Positions 1 through 16,988 of a DNA stretch of 20,032 nucleotides are shown one piece after another (the stretch's first letter is position 1; each line of letters starts with the position of its first letter). The notes under the pieces were generated by a model. That model did not search any database, was not told the origin of the DNA, and was given only the letters and a program-made list of their open reading frames with translations. The translations under genes and the position numbers were made by a program. Origin of the DNA: a virus; IMG/VR virus record IMGVR_UViG_3300009420_000129, positions 1 through 20,032 of that record; one strand, 5' to 3'.

Positions 1-189
1 AGAAGCTGCTTCTCGTGTTTTGCAGGAAATAGATCCACGTGCTGTGAATATATCGATTTGCCATCCTTGGTTATATAGATTGTTAAGCTTATTAATCAGC
101 GGCTCGTTGGGCACGGCCTCGTTAAACTTGCGCCCTTTGTGCCACGCTAAGGTGTCATCAAAATCAACAACAATTCGTTTATAGTACAT
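1..189 (-). CDS. HAD-family phosphatase, N-terminal part (gene runs off the window)
   Basis: Only the first 63 codons are present; the rest lies beyond base 1. The N-terminus carries HAD motif I (D9-F-D11-D-T) and, near residues 49-52, the T-A-R-G of motif II. This pattern is typical of small HAD phosphatases of the polynucleotide kinase or capsule-biosynthesis type, which use the first Asp as nucleophile. The ATG (187-189) overlaps the TAA stop of the glucosyltransferase gene by one base (TAATG), so it is the last visible gene of the modification operon. Its substrate cannot be inferred; a phosphorylated sugar or nucleotide would fit the neighbours. A second, different HAD protein lies at 19579-19917. 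Confidence 0.75.
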   Translation of the reverse strand, partial: MYYKRIVVDFDDTLAWHKGRKFNEAVPNEPLINKLNNLYNQGWQIDIFTARGSISCKTREAAS

Positions 190-1607
190 TAGAAAAAGCC
201 TTCGAGTGACGCGACATCTTTGACTGGTTTAATTTCATTGTTTTTACCTGCTACAAGCGTCATAGGCTTTTTGTTCAATATAGATGTACCAGAGCTTACA
301 ATGATTTCGCCGTTTGCGCGCCGCGCGGCCGCGTCTGGAAAGAAATCAGAAATAGCTTCAATATAATTAATCTTATCACTTCTCTTGCCTTTTGTCAACA
401 CAAAATCTAAAAACTTTGGAGCAAGGACGTCAATATTGTTAAATTTGTTGATTAATTCTTGGCATGCTCGTGTACGTTCATTAAACTCGTTTGGCGATGC
501 GGCTATGCGTTTCATTTCATCAGCTATGAACGCTTCTTCTCTGGCCTCTGCAATAATAGGTCCATCATATTCACCCCACAATTTGCCTTCAGGTGATTTT
601 GCGTTTTCTGCAAAATGTCGTTGGATAATTGGCATAGATAATAGATACGACTCAATCATAGTATATTCCATACGATTACCATATTCTTCTGAATTTCTAA
701 GACGGTATCCGCACCAAGAACCCATCGATTTACCAAGAGTTTCCATACCCCAATCATAAGCATATTTTTCATATGAATTTATTTTAGTATTAGTTTTGAG
801 AGCTTCGGCGCGAGGAACTCTAATTTCACCCTTAACATTCACACTGTGGATACGAATTAAATTGCGATAAGCTGGGATATATGGTGCTGTGCACAAATCA
901 AGCGGTTCAGTTACTGTTGCGCCCGAGATAGACCTTTCACACCCAATCAACGACAAGTCCCATTCGTCTATATCAACATGCGGTAGCAAGCGACATATCA
1001 TCGCCGGATCTTTAATGCTTGACATTCTACCCATATAAACAATGTGCTTGCGGCGTTCTTCGGCCGAAGCCCTGAACTTGTCATATAACTGAGTATCAAC
1101 CCAAATTGGATTTTCGTATAGGTTTGATTCCATACTCTTATCGATTGCAGTATACATTTGTTTTGAATGACCATTCAACGATTGAACTACACCAACATCA
1201 GCCATAGACATAATTTCACCACCCTGCGGAATCATATTAATATTACTCTTTGTAATTCCATGGTCATGTACAACAATAATTGGATCGTGTACTCGCGACA
1301 TAAACTCACGGCACCGGTCGATATATTTTTCTTGCTTACGTGTTGGCACTGAATGCAATATTGCTATATCGCAGCTATTGACTTCTGCTAAAATATCTTT
1401 ACAATCGTCTACGGTCCAGTTTTTCTCGCACTTTAATATGGGCCCGGTAAAGCTAAGATTCCTAGCGCGGTAAAATATCTGACCGCAATCAAAATCGATG
1501 TTAACGGTTTGGTGACCGTGTTCAGTCAGCCACTTTTCTAAAATAGTAGCTCCGCGAGTAACACCACAACCTTCAATTCCTTTACCAAAAATAAACGCTA
1601 CTTTCAT
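189..1607 (-). CDS. agt: Agt-like DNA alpha-glucosyltransferase (T4 Agt / GT72 type)
   Basis: Predicted GT-B glycosyltransferase that moves a sugar from a nucleotide sugar to 5-hydroxymethylcytosine in phage DNA. It is recognised by resemblance to T4 Agt as I remember it: an N-terminal G-x-E-G-C-G-V-T (about 10-17), an H-S-V-P segment (85-88), H114-D-H116 after a hydrophobic strand, a G-R-M-S-S strand start near the C-terminal Rossmann domain, and a later G-K-S-x-G-x-x-x-G-Y region followed by R-M-E-Y-T-x-I-E. At 472 residues it is longer than T4 Agt (about 400), and the extra length is mostly C-terminal. The ATG overlaps the methyltransferase stop by one base. Co-transcription with dCMP hydroxymethylase supports a DNA substrate. 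The sugar donor (UDP-glucose or another) cannot be read from sequence. Confidence 0.8.
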   Translation of the reverse strand: MKVAFIFGKGIEGCGVTRGATILEKWLTEHGHQTVNIDFDCGQIFYRARNLSFTGPILKCEKNWTVDDCKDILAEVNSCDIAILHSVPTRKQEKYIDRCREFMSRVHDPIIVVHDHGITKSNINMIPQGGEIMSMADVGVVQSLNGHSKQMYTAIDKSMESNLYENPIWVDTQLYDKFRASAEERRKHIVYMGRMSSIKDPAMICRLLPHVDIDEWDLSLIGCERSISGATVTEPLDLCTAPYIPAYRNLIRIHSVNVKGEIRVPRAEALKTNTKINSYEKYAYDWGMETLGKSMGSWCGYRLRNSEEYGNRMEYTMIESYLLSMPIIQRHFAENAKSPEGKLWGEYDGPIIAEAREEAFIADEMKRIAASPNEFNERTRACQELINKFNNIDVLAPKFLDFVLTKGKRSDKINYIEAISDFFPDAAARRANGEIIVSSGTSILNKKPMTLVAGKNNEIKPVKDVASLEGFF

Positions 1608-2248
1608 TATAAATTATTCTCCATATTAACACGCCACTCTTCATAATTATCTTCCAAGTTAACCCACTGTAAGTTTTGTGACGTTTTATTTTTATCCCAC
1701 ACGATCCACATATAAGCAATCATACCACCAATTTGGTCCTTCTTTTTAATAGGCTCAGCGACGTCAGCGCTAAATCTAACCCTGTCAGATAGGAATATTA
1801 TATCATTAGGTGGATGTTTTGTAAACAGTTTATTTCGCTTTTTACCTTCTAAAAAAGTAAGCCTTAGAAACATAGCAACGTAGTCGTATTCTTTAATCCA
1901 CTTTTCAGCGAGCTTGTGCGGTAAGTTTTTATGGTACGGCGGGTTTGTAACAACGCCTGTGGCTAAAGGATGTTTTGTCATATCTAAAGCGTCATATGGT
2001 GTATTTATAGCACACAATGGATCGTCATATTGATTCAAATCATATGATGCAACTTCATGTCCATTCCGCAGTAGCTCTGCTGATATATGGCCGCGGCCCG
2101 CGCAAGGTTCAATAATACTTGTAGGGACGCTGCCGTATTTACATAGCACATAAGTTGCTAAAGGCGGAGTCGGATAAAAATCGTTCGCCCGCCTATTTGG
2201 ATCGTTTTTCTTTACACCAGTATAGATGTCTGTTAAGTTATTCGCCAA
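1607..2248 (-). CDS. SAM-dependent DNA amino-methyltransferase
   Basis: A Rossmann-fold methyltransferase of 213 residues. Motif I is E47-P-C-A-G-R-G (SAM binding) and the catalytic motif IV is N102-P-P-Y105, the signature of enzymes that methylate exocyclic amino groups (N6-adenine or N4-cytosine). The N-D-F-Y-P-T-P-P segment (22-29) is common in phage methyltransferases of this class. The start appears to be TTG (2246-2248), overlapping the 3' end of the dCMP deaminase gene by 11 bases; no ATG lies upstream of motif I. No separate target-recognition domain is evident, so it is probably a small orphan enzyme. It may protect phage DNA; T4 likewise combines Dam with glucosylated hydroxymethylcytosine. 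A non-DNA NPPY substrate is possible but less likely here. Confidence 0.8.
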   Translation of the reverse strand: MANNLTDIYTGVKKNDPNRRANDFYPTPPLATYVLCKYGSVPTSIIEPCAGRGHISAELLRNGHEVASYDLNQYDDPLCAINTPYDALDMTKHPLATGVVTNPPYHKNLPHKLAEKWIKEYDYVAMFLRLTFLEGKKRNKLFTKHPPNDIIFLSDRVRFSADVAEPIKKKDQIGGMIAYMWIVWDKNKTSQNLQWVNLEDNYEEWRVNMENNL

Positions 2249-3029
2249 GAATCATTACCACAATACCAGCTTCTTTAAACATAGGGCTTGTGCGTGTAAT
2301 CCATAAATCTTTCCAGTGAGCGTTTGAATTAACAAGATCGTTAATAACAACTCTACGTACGCCTGCTTGAATAATAAGCTTAGCGCATTCAGGACACACC
2401 GGTAAACCGTGAACATACATAGTTGCATCTTTTAGGCTAACACCAGCATATAGTGCATTCATTAAAGCATTCGTTTCAGCATGCACGATGCGCGGATACT
2501 TTTCTTCGCGATCGTTTAAACGTTCTTCAGTATCAGCAATACCCTTAGGAAACCCGTTATAACCAGTTGCAAGAATGCGTCGCTCGTCGTTAACAGCTAC
2601 AGCGCCAATTTGGCTTGACGGATCTTTGCTCCACTTAGCAATCATTTTGCACATTTCCATGAAACGTTGATCCCATTTAAGTTGTCGCCCTACACAATTC
2701 TGATGGATCTGATCCCATTTGAGTTGCCGAGCGTCTTCCTCGCGGTGCATACGTTTCATAGTTTCGTCATACGGTTCTTGCCTATTCACAGCTTCGGAGC
2801 GAGGATAATCTTTTTCAAATACTGGAGAAAAAACAGCCGCTTTGGCCCATCCTCTTTCTCCTTCATACGTAGAACAGTTATTGAGTTTTTCTTGTACGTG
2901 AAACAAAACTTTATACAAATCCTGTTTGCAACCAAACGTAGTGTAGCCATCCATTCGAGGATCTGACTCACCGTACGCAATTTTATTAATTTCATTTTTA
3001 ATTGTATCAAGCGACCAATCTTTAATCAT
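2238..3029 (-). CDS. cd: dCMP deaminase with an N-terminal extension
   Basis: Zinc-dependent deaminase converting dCMP to dUMP, feeding thymidylate synthesis. The catalytic domain starts near residue 122 and shows H183-A-E185 (zinc ligand and proton shuttle) and C212-P-E-C215 (zinc ligands), plus the T-G-Y-N-G-F-P-K-G strand-loop typical of the family. T4 Cd is about 193 residues; this one is 263 because of roughly 120 extra residues at the N-terminus, where the heptapeptide R-Q-L-K-W-D-Q occurs twice (101-107 and 115-121). The extension has no function I recognise. The start overlaps the upstream coiled-coil gene by 8 bases. Its place between the hydroxymethylase and methyltransferase genes fits dNTP pool control in a phage with modified cytosine. 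Confidence 0.9.
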   Translation of the reverse strand: MIKDWSLDTIKNEINKIAYGESDPRMDGYTTFGCKQDLYKVLFHVQEKLNNCSTYEGERGWAKAAVFSPVFEKDYPRSEAVNRQEPYDETMKRMHREEDARQLKWDQIHQNCVGRQLKWDQRFMEMCKMIAKWSKDPSSQIGAVAVNDERRILATGYNGFPKGIADTEERLNDREEKYPRIVHAETNALMNALYAGVSLKDATMYVHGLPVCPECAKLIIQAGVRRVVINDLVNSNAHWKDLWITRTSPMFKEAGIVVMILGE

Positions 3030-3246
3030 CGGGTTTTCCTATCATGCGTTTTTCCATTGAGCTTTTAATGTCAAGCACTGCTTCTTTCTCAATTATATTA
3101 ATGATGATATTTGTAACATCAATATCCTTTTGAATAAAAAACATTTTTCGCTGTAGTTTTTTTAGTTCTTCTGTATAAAACTCGAGTTCTTTTTCTTTAC
3201 GAATTTTCTGCTCAAGAATATCAGTTATTTGAATAAGCTCAACCAT
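3022..3246 (-). CDS. Small predicted coiled-coil protein
   Basis: A 74-residue hypothetical protein rich in Lys, Glu, Ile and Leu. Residues about 10-55 have regular hydrophobic spacing suggesting a long alpha-helix or coiled coil. No catalytic motif, signal peptide or cysteine pair is visible. The ATG overlaps the dCMP hydroxymethylase stop by one base (TAATG) and its own stop overlaps the deaminase start by 8 bases (ATGATTAA), so it is translated as part of this operon. It could help assemble a nucleotide-synthesis complex, as T4 dNTP enzymes are known to associate, but that is inference from position only. Confidence 0.7.
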   Translation of the reverse strand: MVELIQITDILEQKIRKEKELEFYTEELKKLQRKMFFIQKDIDVTNIIINIIEKEAVLDIKSSMEKRMIGKPDD

Positions 3247-3956
3247 TAAACTACTAAATCAAAGTGGCGAGAATATACGTGCAAATTCATCACAGACCAA
3301 ATAAGATCACCTTTGGTAATAAGCTGGACAGGTTCTCCAAAAGTTGATGTTGTGTTGCGAATATTAGCTTCAGTGTTGTAATCTTGAACAAACTTGTCCA
3401 TAAGATATTGGGCCCAGGCGTAATCGTTTTTATAGCCAAACACTACATCGTTCGAACGCATCTGCGATACCATATGCAATTTGCCATCGCGAATATAAAC
3501 AGCCTGCGCGTTAGTGCAAATGAAATCAGACTTGCCGCCTTCATCAAACTCAACCCAAATAGATGGGCGGTTATATACCATTTGAGCACGACGGCTATCT
3601 GGATTTCTCCATAGTTCATTAAACGCATTTTGATATTGAGTATGATATTTGCTAGAAAACACCAAATGGCCGTAATTAGAATTGATGTTTCCATATTCGT
3701 CAGCGGCATATTGCCATGCGGCAGGCGGAGCTTTATCCTTGCCATGTATATCATTAATGTTAGTAGAGCCAGATTCATACCAAGCAAGCTCAGCATCAAT
3801 ATAAGATTGGACTGGCGTGCCAAAGATAGCTGGTTCGTCTGCAATAAAGGTTGCGCCAAGCATTTCAATTGTTTTAGCACCAGTTTTATCAGTAGTAAAG
3901 CGTTCAGCTTTTAGTTCTTCAACAAAGTACTCGCGAATATCATTTACATTTTGCAT
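3246..3956 (-). CDS. 42: dCMP hydroxymethylase (T4 gp42 homologue)
   Basis: A thymidylate synthase-fold enzyme that adds a hydroxymethyl group to dCMP using methylenetetrahydrofolate, the committed step to hydroxymethylcytosine DNA. It has 236 residues against 246 in T4 gp42. The catalytic cysteine is C147 in S-D-F-I-C-T-N. The stretch M-R-S-N-D-V-V-F-G-Y-K-N-D follows at about 166-178, where D178 takes the position of the dUMP-binding Asn of thymidylate synthases; this Asp marks the dCMP-specific enzymes. The N-terminal D-K-T-G-x-K-T-I-E and the N-P-D-S-R-R segment also match. The ATG overlaps the stop of the DUF5664 gene (TAATG). This gene is the strongest evidence that the phage carries modified cytosine. 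Confidence 0.95.
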   Translation of the reverse strand: MQNVNDIREYFVEELKAERFTTDKTGAKTIEMLGATFIADEPAIFGTPVQSYIDAELAWYESGSTNINDIHGKDKAPPAAWQYAADEYGNINSNYGHLVFSSKYHTQYQNAFNELWRNPDSRRAQMVYNRPSIWVEFDEGGKSDFICTNAQAVYIRDGKLHMVSQMRSNDVVFGYKNDYAWAQYLMDKFVQDYNTEANIRNTTSTFGEPVQLITKGDLIWSVMNLHVYSRHFDLVV

Positions 3957-5607: not shown

Positions 5608-6003
5608 TTATTCATATTTTACTATGGAGCAAAGCTCTGTTACGAGAGCTTTGCCATAATCTGTGAACAATATTCCTTTATCCCAAATCCAGCTCTCTAC
5701 ACACTGGCCGGTGTAGAATGTACAAGTACCTGTCATCCAGCGGAGAGCAGTAGTTCGATCACCTGCGCCTAGTGTAATATAAGTTTCTATAGCAGCTTTA
5801 AACTGGTCAACCTGAGCAACTGCGAATGCGTTTTCGCGCTTAGTGTTTTCTTTCAGCTCATCACAAAGAGCATCCCAAAGTTCTTGCTTTTTATCAGGAT
5901 CAGTTACGGCGCGCCAATCATCCATTAGAGCTCCGCGTGGACGGTAACCGTTTACGTCTTTAAAAAGATCTGAAAACGCGTCGTCACTGTAAGTATATTC
6001 CAT
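5608..6003 (-). CDS. Hypothetical protein (131 residues)
   Basis: No recognised family. The product is acidic in its N-terminal half and holds a few Cys and Trp residues in its C-terminal half (C-T-F-Y-T-G-Q-C near 102-109, E-S-W-I-W-D). I place the start at the ATG 6001-6003 because it follows AAGGAATC at the right distance and because the bases upstream are shared with the unrelated 7313-7597 gene, so they are leader and not coding. It is transcribed from its own promoter (6036-6064), directly behind a terminator, as an independent early unit. Its small size and strong promoter fit host-takeover genes of T4-type phages, without specific evidence. Confidence 0.75.
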   Translation of the reverse strand: MEYTYSDDAFSDLFKDVNGYRPRGALMDDWRAVTDPDKKQELWDALCDELKENTKRENAFAVAQVDQFKAAIETYITLGAGDRTTALRWMTGTCTFYTGQCVESWIWDKGILFTDYGKALVTELCSIVKYE

Positions 6004-6065
6004 AACTGATTCCTTTTTCGTTACCTTATACAATTAATATAAACTATTTAGAAACGAATGTCAAC
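6001..6065 (-). repeat. Duplicated promoter-leader cassette A, copy 1
   Basis: These 65 bases match 7595-7659 with two differences, covering the -35 and -10 boxes, the leader, the ribosome-binding site (AAAGGAATCAGTT) and the start codon. The coding sequences that follow are unrelated, so a regulatory module was duplicated, not a gene. Confidence 0.9.
6036..6064 (-). promoter_or_regulatory. Sigma70-type early promoter
   Basis: TTGACA (6059-6064), 17-base spacer, TATATT (6036-6041) on the minus strand. The -35 box follows directly on the T-tract of the terminator at 6070-6110, giving a compact stem-loop plus promoter module upstream of 5608-6003. Confidence 0.9.
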
Positions 6066-6069
6066 TAAA

Positions 6070-6110
6070 AAATAAAAAATAGGGAAACTAAATTAATAGC
6101 TTCCCTATTT
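6070..6110 (-). terminator. Rho-independent terminator
   Basis: On the minus strand a perfect 10-bp stem (AAATAGGGAA at 6101-6110 pairing with TTCCCTATTT at 6077-6086) with a 14-base loop is followed by a long T-rich tract. It ends the transcript carrying the small genes at 6208-6625 and the candidate structured RNA. Confidence 0.9.
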
Positions 6111-6111
6111 C

Positions 6112-6200
6112 TTGATCCCAAAGGATCCTCTGGTTGTTGACCACGTTGTTAATCCGAGTCTTACTCAGCGATAATTAGGTCTCCGTAGAGCCGTGGTTTT
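6112..6200 (-). ncRNA. Candidate structured RNA upstream of a terminator
   Basis: This gene-free stretch folds well only as minus-strand RNA. In order: a six-base arm A-C-C-A-C-G (6192-6197) that can pair with C-G-T-G-G-T (6140-6145); inside it a hairpin with C(UACG)G, an extra-stable UNCG tetraloop, on a G-G-C-U-C/G-A-G-A-C-C stem (6178-6192); a second hairpin C-U-G-A-G-U/A-C-U-C-G-G with an AAG loop (6154-6168), whose U-G wobble would be a mismatch in the other strand; then a small U-G-G-U/A-C-C-A hairpin (6131-6143) competing with the outer arm, and a 5-bp G-A-U-C-C/G-G-A-U-C hairpin (6114-6127). The terminator follows at once. No tRNA, ribozyme or riboswitch class that I know matches. It may be a small RNA or an elaborate 3' UTR. 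Confidence 0.55.
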
Positions 6201-6207
6201 CCTATTC

Positions 6208-6408
6208 TTAAGCCATTTGAACTCTAACAACTTGACCTTCAGGGTTCCACATAGTGTGAACTCTCTTTTGAGCGCACTGTTGCTGAGTTCTGCAAGTCCA
6301 CCATTCTTCGGCTTCTTGCTGAGTATCAACGTAAACGGCACCACATTCCAGACTATTAGTTTGGCTGTTTGGATTAACTCTGTTCATTTGAACTCTAACT
6401 TCCCACAT
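6208..6408 (-). CDS. Small hypothetical protein, Trp/Gln-rich
   Basis: A 66-residue protein beginning M-W-E-V-R-V-Q-M and ending V-V-R-V-Q-M-A, so the terminal strands are near copies of each other. The middle has Q-E-A-E-E-W-W-T-C-R. Short proteins of this style, with an opening beta strand and a Q-E-A helix, occur widely in T4-type marine phages, with no function I know. The ATG is preceded by AAAGGAATTACT. It is the last protein gene before the structured RNA and terminator. Confidence 0.7.
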   Translation of the reverse strand: MWEVRVQMNRVNPNSQTNSLECGAVYVDTQQEAEEWWTCRTQQQCAQKRVHTMWNPEGQVVRVQMA

Positions 6409-6418
6409 AGTAATTCCT

Positions 6419-6625
6419 TTATATTTGATTTAGAAAAATAAGATCTTCTTCTTCAGTCTCTTCCCTTAGAAAAATAATATCTTCAATTTCTTCGAGAGTC
6501 TCTCTACATGTAGCTAGAATATGAGAATCTGTTGCAAGGATAAGTTTCTTAGCAGCGAAGATTTGGTCGTACCGATCTAGACCTTGAGGGATTTGGTCGG
6601 CGATTGTTTGAGTGAAGAGTTTCAT
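6419..6625 (-). CDS. Small hypothetical protein
   Basis: A 68-residue acidic protein. The start M-K-L-F-T-Q-x-I-A-D-Q-I-P resembles the opening of DUF2958-like phage proteins, but the rest of that family (about 100 residues or more) is missing, so it may be truncated or unrelated. The C-terminal third is Glu-rich. Its ATG follows AAAGGATTATAAA, and the promoter at 6651-6679 sits just upstream. Confidence 0.65.
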   Translation of the reverse strand: MKLFTQTIADQIPQGLDRYDQIFAAKKLILATDSHILATCRETLEEIEDIIFLREETEEEDLIFLNQI

Positions 6626-6650: not shown

Positions 6651-6679
6651 AATATAACAAATCTAAAATGAAATGTCAA
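6651..6679 (-). promoter_or_regulatory. Sigma70-type early promoter
   Basis: TTGACA (6674-6679), 17-base spacer, TATATT (6651-6656) on the minus strand, about 25 bases before the ATG of 6419-6625. It begins just after the stop codon of the upstream gene and likely drives 6625 to 6208, the RNA and the terminator. Confidence 0.85.
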
Positions 6680-7312: not shown

Positions 7313-7597
7313 TTATTGTACCTGCTTATCTATAATTTTAACCAAATCTCCGGCAAATACGCTTTCAACTGTTTTTGAAACCTTAAATTCGAGTTTGCGA
7401 ATTTTACCAAAAATGATACTGTAAAGGTCTTGTCCTCTGTCATATTTGACCTGAACAAGACCTTTCCAGCCACACATGCCAGAAGATTTAAACTGTAGAC
7501 CATCTTCAATTGCCATCATATCTTTTGTTCCCCAGGCGTCGAATGCCCACGGATCAATTGCTTTGATTTGATTGCGAATTGTTGTTCCAATGTTCAT
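7313..7597 (-). CDS. Conserved phage hypothetical protein
   Basis: A 94-residue protein. The pattern I-x-x-I-K-A-I-D-P-W-A-F-x-A-W-G and later L-Q-F-K-S-S-G-M-C-G-W-K-G is one I associate with a widespread uncharacterised phage family. The second half looks like a small beta domain. The start is the ATG at 7595-7597 after AAGGAATC; upstream in-frame bases belong to the promoter-leader cassette shared with 6001-6065. Confidence 0.75.
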   Translation of the reverse strand: MNIGTTIRNQIKAIDPWAFDAWGTKDMMAIEDGLQFKSSGMCGWKGLVQVKYDRGQDLYSIIFGKIRKLEFKVSKTVESVFAGDLVKIIDKQVQ

Positions 7598-7659
7598 AAC
7601 TGATTCCTTTTTCTTTACCTTATACAATCAATATAAACTATTTAGAAACGAATGTCAAC
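7595..7659 (-). repeat. Duplicated promoter-leader cassette A, copy 2
   Basis: Matches 6001-6065 at 63 of 65 positions, including promoter boxes, leader, ribosome-binding site and start codon. Confidence 0.9.
7630..7658 (-). promoter_or_regulatory. Sigma70-type early promoter
   Basis: TTGACA (7653-7658), 17-base spacer, TATATT (7630-7635) on the minus strand. It drives 7313-7597 and probably 7090-7311. Confidence 0.9.
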
Positions 7660-13418: not shown

Positions 13419-13651
13419 TTAGATGCCTCGATAATTACGGTTTTTATGGTTTCTTCGTCAGCGTCACCGATAACTTGTCGGACGAGTTCGTCAAGGTTGT
13501 TATAATTTTTAGATTCAAAAATGTATAAAGGGTTGCCGCCTGCGGGACCAAATTCCTGGACGAGTATTGCCGTACAACCAAGGCCGTTAGCGAATTCTTT
13601 AACTTCGATTTCAGTATTTTCGGATGAGATGTCAAGTTGTGCGATGTACAT
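13415..13651 (-). CDS. Small hypothetical protein
   Basis: A 78-residue acidic protein with alternating strands and helices (I-A-Q-L-D-I, then G-L-G-C-T-A-I-L-V-Q-E-F-G-P-A-G-G-N-P). The G-P-A-G-G-N-P turn is the most distinctive feature. The ATG at 13649-13651 is preceded by AAAGGAATCATT, the same type of ribosome-binding site as in cassette A, so I prefer it to the upstream in-frame start. First gene after the promoter at 13684-13712. Confidence 0.65.
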   Translation of the reverse strand: MYIAQLDISSENTEIEVKEFANGLGCTAILVQEFGPAGGNPLYIFESKNYNNLDELVRQVIGDADEETIKTVIIEASK

Positions 13652-13683
13652 AATGATTCCTTTTTGTTTCACATTATGATTCT

Positions 13684-13712
13684 AATCTACACTATTTTAA
13701 AACGAATGTCAA
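13684..13712 (-). promoter_or_regulatory. Sigma70-type early promoter overlapping a stop codon
   Basis: TTGACA (13707-13712), 17-base spacer, TAGATT (13684-13689) on the minus strand. The TGA inside the -35 box is the stop codon of the 13709-13948 gene. It drives the run of tiny genes down to about 12386. Confidence 0.85.
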
Positions 13713-13948
13713 CTACTTTTTTTAGTTTCCTTTAGTTTTACATCTGGTACTTGTTCTGTATATACAAGCATATAATAATTAACTTTGTCTAAGTTTTCTA
13801 ACATTTTTTCAAGGTAGTCACACATGCTTAGCACTGAAGTTGTGTCGATACCATTTTTGTTAAAATCAAATTCCAAAGCCCGAAGAAGTGTAAAGTTTTC
13901 AACACGCATAATTTCAACAATGTAATTTTCGTAATGTGACGCATTCAT
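13709..13948 (-). CDS. Small hypothetical protein
   Basis: A 79-residue protein, probably helical, with no recognised domain; one cysteine in the middle and a Lys-Ser-rich end. AAGGAAAAAA precedes the ATG. It follows the glutaredoxin gene closely and is probably in the same transcript from the promoter at 14590-14618. Confidence 0.6.
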   Translation of the reverse strand: MNASHYENYIVEIMRVENFTLLRALEFDFNKNGIDTTSVLSMCDYLEKMLENLDKVNYYMLVYTEQVPDVKLKETKKSS

Positions 13949-16902: not shown

Positions 16903-16933
16903 AATACGATTCCTTTTTATTTATCGTATATAC

Positions 16934-16962
16934 AGTATAACCGATTTTTAATAGAATGTCAA
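16934..16962 (-). promoter_or_regulatory. Sigma70-type early promoter
   Basis: TTGACA (16957-16962), 17-base spacer, TATACT (16934-16939) on the minus strand, upstream of the 26-residue gene. A GATAAATA late-like element lies between this promoter and the ribosome-binding site. Confidence 0.88.
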
Positions 16963-16964
16963 CT

Positions 16965-16988
16965 AAAAAATGAAATTAAATCATTTTT
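16965..16988 (-). terminator. Weak A/T stem-loop at the end of the DUF454 gene
   Basis: AAAAATGA (16966-16973) and TCATTTTT (16981-16988) form an 8-bp stem with a 7-base loop, and a short T-run follows on the minus strand. It spans the DUF454 stop codon and directly precedes the next promoter, but it has only one G-C pair. Confidence 0.4.

Follow-up and report, generated by a model that had tools for sequence, protein, structure and literature searches.

Does the minus strand of a T4-like phage, between the stop codon of a small early gene and an intrinsic terminator, encode a defined structured RNA, and what might such an RNA do at the end of a transcript? Little is known of the structured noncoding RNAs that lytic phages encode, and control by structured elements within bacterial 3' UTRs has been termed highly unusual (PMC2864571). 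The window analyzed here (the whole stretch of DNA, 20,032 nt) is a T4-like myovirus genome fragment (an IMG/VR record) with a G+C content of 36.6%; it encodes RNase H, a Dda-like helicase, dCMP deaminase, and thymidylate synthase-like and alpha-glucosyltransferase-like proteins, along with numerous small early genes on the minus strand. Its closest named relatives by RNase H, Sinorhizobium phages phiM12 and phiM7 and Methylophilales phage Melnitz, are only 47–49% identical, and two further IMG/VR contigs represent practically the same virus (99.8–99.9% identical). Genes for alpha-glucosyltransferase-like, DNA methyltransferase-like, dCMP deaminase and thymidylate synthase-like proteins are grouped at 189–3956, a gene set that suggests modified phage DNA.

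The operon that carries the RNA starts from a sigma-70-like early promoter (TTGACA-17-TATATT, 6651–6679, minus strand, 11 of 12 consensus matches), and no comparable promoter was found between 6679–6651 and the RNA. The ORF list places two minus-strand genes behind this promoter, the operon's first encoding a 68-aa early protein (6419–6625) and the second, directly upstream of the RNA, a 66-aa early protein (6208–6408) whose stop codon UAA (6210–6208) lies 3 nt before the RNA. With the intrinsic terminator that follows (6074–6113, minus strand, 17 pairs with G-U allowed), promoter, genes and RNA make up a single predicted transcript of ~570 nt, and the gene downstream of the terminator has its own promoter (6064–6036). 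Family searches assigned neither protein to a family, and the 66-aa protein had no match among named phages; its gene contains the stretch GTTAGAGTTCAAATG at both start and end, and the protein carries VRVQM at both ends. Early promoter-leader repeats occur in the window at 6001–6065, 7595–7659, 13649–13715 and 16908–16975, the first two being 97% identical, and the genes at 5608–6033 and 7313–7627 begin with nearly the same residues (MYKVxKKESVM), probably due to the leader.

Read 5' to 3', minus strand 6204–6139 is the conserved core of the RNA and folds as a three-way junction (P1, P2 and P3) with a pseudoknot, in the order UAGG, AAA, ACCACG, G, CUC-UACG-GAG, A, CCUA, AUU, P3 AUCGCUGAGUAAGACUCGGAU, UAACAA and CGUGGU. 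The pseudoknot pairs strand a (PKa, UAGG, 6201–6204) with strand b (PKb, CCUA, 6176–6179), with which it covaries; the six base pairs of P1 join ACCACG (6192–6197) to CGUGGU (6140–6145); and P2 (6181–6190) is a hairpin with a UNCG loop that is variable across the family. P3 (6152–6172) is built of a 3-bp AUC/GAU stem, a GC bulge (GU once), five pairs (UGAGU/ACUCG) and a trinucleotide apex, and has at its tip U-N-R-G-A, which we take to be a T-loop-like sequence. Beyond P1, a linker with AGAG leads to a 14-nt hairpin between core and terminator (GAUCC-UUUG-GGAUC, 6114–6127), in place of which some relatives have a UUCG hairpin, and then to the terminator itself. The pseudoknot strand AAUAGGAAAA (6206–6197) is similar to the terminator 5' arm AAUAGGGAA (6109–6101) and could thus pair with the terminator 3' arm, a likeness that is not conserved in other family members.

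The original prediction, made from this sequence alone, had placed four hairpins and a long-range pairing at 6112–6200. The predicted RNA does cover that span, but its 5' start lies 4 nt further out, and the pseudoknot formed by UAGG (6204–6201) had been missed. The predicted hairpins at 6190–6181, 6168–6154 and 6127–6114, the long-range ACCACG/CGUGGU pairing and the terminator are all present on the minus strand; comparative data uphold the long-range helix but not the hairpin UGGU-CAACA-ACCA, which uses bases of the 3' strand of that helix, such that the two are alternatives. The G-U pair said to exist only in minus-strand RNA is U6167-G6155, and it is kept as U·G in 49 of 60 homologues, at a position that falls within our search patterns. 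As to stability, the RNA (96 nt) folded alone is only modestly better than shuffled sequence (z -1.76; 13 of 200 shuffles equally good) but stands well apart when folded with its terminator (z -5.26); the plus strand of the same stretch is unremarkable (z -0.61). From this single sequence the case for a structured RNA is weak, and it is the comparison with homologues that raises the RNA above chance.

We obtained these homologues by several routes. An nhmmer search of the loci around 80 related RNase H genes returned a single distant copy (L014, E 1.6e-5) with the same hairpins and different stem sequences. The shared core ATCGCTGAGTNAGACTCGGAT matched 21 viral-contig stretches, 20 of which we read and found to have the same architecture throughout (gene upstream, terminator downstream), the 21st being the window virus. 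A looser pattern yielded one more true copy (L115) and four contigs resembling chance, two additional patterns enlarged the set, and a gp32 scan supplied copies that had not been chosen by pattern (L116, which is Melnitz and was found via gp32, L126, L133, L134, L153, L171 and L200). Model R1, built from six sequences with the window left out, recovers the window copy (E 2.8e-14) as well as several groups outside its training; model R2 gives 75 matches at E ≤ 0.05, 60 of them distinct, in viral contigs and the isolate Melnitz, of which the two weakest (the partial L258 and L263) are probably due to chance. In whole-genome searches Melnitz was missed by both R1 and R2 and found by R3. A blastn search of named phages with the window stretch yielded no credible match, and the small neighboring proteins, used as queries, recovered only the same virus on other contigs, matches that at 99.9% identity are useless for covariation.

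The Rfam search that had been proposed for this RNA puts the family outside Rfam 15: the window has no match at the gathering threshold, a relaxed search of 6020–6260 gave only chance-level matches, 12 homologue loci contained only tRNA and tmRNA, and the Melnitz element has no credible match. We rejected a tRNA or tRNA remnant, for which there was no ARAGORN or Rfam match, and a bacterial chromosomal origin, the strict core being without a match in genome_contigs; a second core pattern gave 25 matches there against a chance estimate of ~30, and none of the four that were read has the family architecture. Sequence comparison gives good support to a real RNA that belongs to a family absent from Rfam.

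Covariation among related phages, on whose presence the original prediction had staked itself, is there: compensatory changes affect P1, P2, the pseudoknot and the base of P3. In an alignment of 17 distinct sequences, pairing holds for 98.5% of cells, changes are seen on both sides of 12 of 16 pairs, two-sided changes number 58 against 15.4 ± 3.1 in shuffled data, and sliding the partner by one column lowers pairing to 34–44%; across 60 distinct sequences, 97.1% are paired, with 230 two-sided changes against 61.3 ± 6.0, all of these shuffle statistics taking no account of relatedness among sequences. Because the alignments were fitted to the covariance model, we added an alignment-free test of P1, in which the best helix that the 45 upstream nt could form with the 22 downstream nt came to 13.3 for true combinations and 12.0 ± 0.26 for swapped ones (0/200). 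The pseudoknot is part of none of the models, and in a test anchored on GG and CC only, 44 of 58 sequences had the outer pair, as against 29.7 ± 3.5 after shuffling (0/5000), in the forms UAGG/CCUA, AAGG/CCUU, CAGG/CCUG or UUGG/CCAA. Most search patterns, two complementary versions among them, prescribed the bases of the P3 upper stem and bulge, so that invariance and covariation in this part of P3 are partly built in; P1, P2 and the pseudoknot were free of the patterns, as was the P3 base after the first pattern. The pattern-free finds Melnitz, L134 and L153 keep the form of P3 although its letters differ; they were flagged by a script that demanded the bulge G and the loop G, and R2, which does not demand these, finds Melnitz and L134. 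Together, the substitutions show that a minus-strand RNA fold is kept by selection, at what are predicted to be transcript 3' ends, and the defined noncoding RNA that had been proposed for the 3' end of this small early operon is borne out.

The same comparison removes the feature that had first seemed telling. P2 and its loop vary freely, P2 is absent in L200, and the only ones of the 60 distinct sequences with C(UNCG)G in P2 are the window copy and three others that closely resemble it. Because P2 and the UNCG loop are variable or missing, and C(UNCG)G is rare in the family, the link to the UUCG hairpins of T4 intercistronic RNA does not serve as an explanation. A variant in the gp32 3' UTR of L169 and L172 has the same pseudoknot and P1 with a different and much longer P3 (in L169, GAUGUGCAGUAAGUC...GUCGUAACACCACAUC).

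Nor are small early genes, the setting assumed at the outset, the usual neighbors of this RNA. Among the 55 distinct loci that pass the structural descriptor, gp32 is the gene just upstream in 33 (an assignment that PHROG 224 and Pfam PF08804 confirmed for L103), and in these the RNA mostly starts at the stop codon or a few nucleotides away, PKa beginning within 8 nt of the stop codon, and often overlapping it, in most gp32 loci. Small upstream genes other than gp32 are found in the window (66 aa), L256, L308 and L105, the gene in L105 and its relatives encoding ~126 aa. In G006 the RNA and gp32 are ~25 kb apart, and no such RNA is present at the 3' end of that gp32. Counterparts of the window genes at 16.1–17.4 kb flank the RNA in L105, indicating that its location has shifted between related phages. 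Of 54 members, 50 have a terminator 3' of the RNA, and the remaining four have a hairpin with a weaker U tract. Each carrier searched whole has one credible copy (Melnitz, 141 kb; G015, 174 kb; G016, 107 kb; G018; G006), and G017 (115 kb), likewise searched whole, has one full-length match. The RNA was not found in HTVC008M, P-SSM4, Bellamy, S-CREM1 or phiM12, and it had no match in four relatives of the window (G001–G004, RNase H 61–92% identical), which implies that it is dispensable.

In three phage contigs of 65–174 kb (G015, G016 and G018), in which gp32 had no match, the element terminates a noncoding region of ~1 kb that has no ORF of at least 45 aa on the RNA strand. This region is conserved at the DNA level among the three, belongs to no Rfam family, and in L369 lacks any ORF of 40 aa on either strand; it is possibly a new large phage RNA. 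The unit is located at L369:655–1640 (plus strand) and is also found in L368 and L370, and further promoter-led noncoding units seem to be present upstream of it in these contigs.

We rate the RNA, on its predicted fold and position, as a new family within a known kind, that of structured phage 3'-end RNAs, in which shape rather than sequence is conserved in dozens of aquatic phages. Text searches, mostly without subscription papers, found no published description, and one may exist; the deposited annotation of Melnitz has no feature at the place of the element, and the Melnitz publication lists a tmRNA and a glutamine riboswitch. The RNA combines a fold strongly supported by comparison, a tie to gp32, a gene central to replication, and a carrier in culture (Melnitz on strain H5P1), so that an isolate is available for transcript mapping and probing. 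It is also relevant to the handling of gene 32 mRNA by T4-like phages beyond enterobacteria, a subject for which a review of T4 wants more study (PMC3014915).

Several known RNAs resemble it in part. The autoregulatory operator in the gene 32 leader of T4, T2 and RB69 is likewise a pseudoknot, carried by mRNA of this gene family in T4-like phages, but it lies in the 5' leader and has no three-way junction, whereas the present RNA has a different fold, lies 3' of the stop codon and also occurs behind other genes or none. Flavivirus xrRNAs of class 1 share a three-way junction with pseudoknots, a location in a viral 3' UTR and a variable P2, and here, too, the 5' strand is paired into the junction, as seen in P1, P2, P3 and the PKa-PKb covariation. 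Their second pseudoknot, in which the P3 loop pairs with sequence further downstream, was not found by eye, the apical loop here being N-R-G (3–5 nt) and the sequence after P1 varying; the conserved bases differ, the carrier is a DNA phage, and any role for a 5'-3' exonuclease in its hosts would be putative. STAXI (RF01728) also has pseudoknots near genes for ssDNA-binding proteins and frequent UUCG loops, but it forms tandem repeats, unlike this RNA, and we rejected it when none of 11 records reached the cut-off, the best score among them (E 0.021, 12.1 bits, G010 2736–2840) lying away from the element. The manA, wcaG and glnA RNAs are structured RNAs of the same kind of phage, T4-like marine ones, but have mainly been described as riboswitch-like elements of 5' UTRs, unlike the 3'-end RNA here, and none had a match in the window or the Melnitz element. 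A manA-like RNA does lie between gp32 and the family RNA at L200:3043–3203 (plus strand; 48.1 bits, E 1.8e-11, against a gathering score of 55.2). The terminator-ended or 3'-derived sRNAs offer a further likeness: lambda PreS is a short phage-encoded regulatory RNA, Hfq-dependent, that regulates dnaN (PMC12197685), and bacterial 3'-derived sRNAs end at an intrinsic terminator, as does the RNA in the window and in most of its family. In contrast to PreS, the conserved part here is a rigid fold, and an obvious antisense seed was not seen.

A riboregulatory or protein-binding role, as suggested in the original prediction, is plausible. We tentatively favor a transcript 3'-end RNA that probably becomes free, or exposed, at the stop codon and may act in trans through its nearly invariant P3. 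RNA polymerase would pass the early operon, the stop codon of the 66-aa gene and the RNA before halting at the terminator; the fold would then present the P3 hairpin with its GY bulge and apical T-loop-like U-N-R-G-A; an endonuclease cut near the stop codon might free the folded 3' piece, or it could be kept as a tail; and P3 would be offered in trans to a protein or RNA partner. Acting in this way, the RNA could sit behind any well-transcribed phage operon. We infer a trans role from the single copy, the several unrelated transcripts that host it, the noncoding carrier, and a constraint on bases beyond what stem stability demands; single copies and a moving position speak for it only indirectly, and the greater part of the family loci are fragments. 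A mechanism for release is offered by T4, in which gene 32 mRNA is cut by RNase E near the stop codon, at a site that is conserved among five T4-related phages (PMC3014915).

The strong association with gp32, and the stop codon that often falls inside the pseudoknot strand, fit a cis role as well. The knotted fold might slow 3'-5' exonucleases or shield the mRNA end, prolonging or timing the expression of the preceding gene, be it gp32 or an early operon. In every case the RNA shares the coding strand of the gene ahead of it and directly precedes the terminator, and protection in cis is a serious rival, if a rather unlikely one, because gp32 is the commonest host and the pairing of the 5' strand into a three-way junction recalls exonuclease-resistant RNAs (PMC7527734). 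However, there is one copy per genome and gp32 is not always its host, the RNA also ends a noncoding transcript, the terminator hairpin already protects the 3' end, and the conserved bulge G and UNRGA loop exceed the needs of simple stability. A bolder form of the trans reading, which we consider somewhat less likely still, would extend to T4-like and other large phages a widespread, pseudoknotted, single-copy RNA machine, attached to any strong transcript, that binds and redirects a host or phage protein via P3 and in one group is fused to the conserved ~1-kb RNA.

Feedback coupled to translation seems improbable. Because the stop codon lies within PKa in many gp32 copies, a terminating ribosome might hold the RNA open; once gp32 represses its own translation, the RNA would fold and mark the mRNA for processing, or be bound by gp32. 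The proximity of PKa to the stop codon in most gp32 loci speaks for this, as do the autoregulation of T4 gp32 via a pseudoknot and the proposal that ribosomes obstruct the RNase E site located at the end of the gene (PMC3014915), but the T4 operator belongs to the 5' leader, the stop codon is likewise near a terminator in gp32 genes that lack the RNA, and copies behind unrelated genes or a noncoding transcript have no gp32 translation to sense. Control of transcription, by a put-like antiterminator or a riboswitch acting on the adjacent terminator, is very improbable despite the position of the RNA immediately ahead of that terminator and the riboswitch-like RNAs encoded by related phages (PMC9004378), given that the gene past the terminator is convergent in L105 and L115, where read-through would yield antisense RNA only, that the next gene in the window has its own promoter, that no Rfam riboswitch matched, and that a conserved alternative pairing between RNA and terminator was not seen. 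We rejected a stop-codon read-through element because UAA is followed in the window by GAA and an in-frame UAG, and some copies follow no gene.
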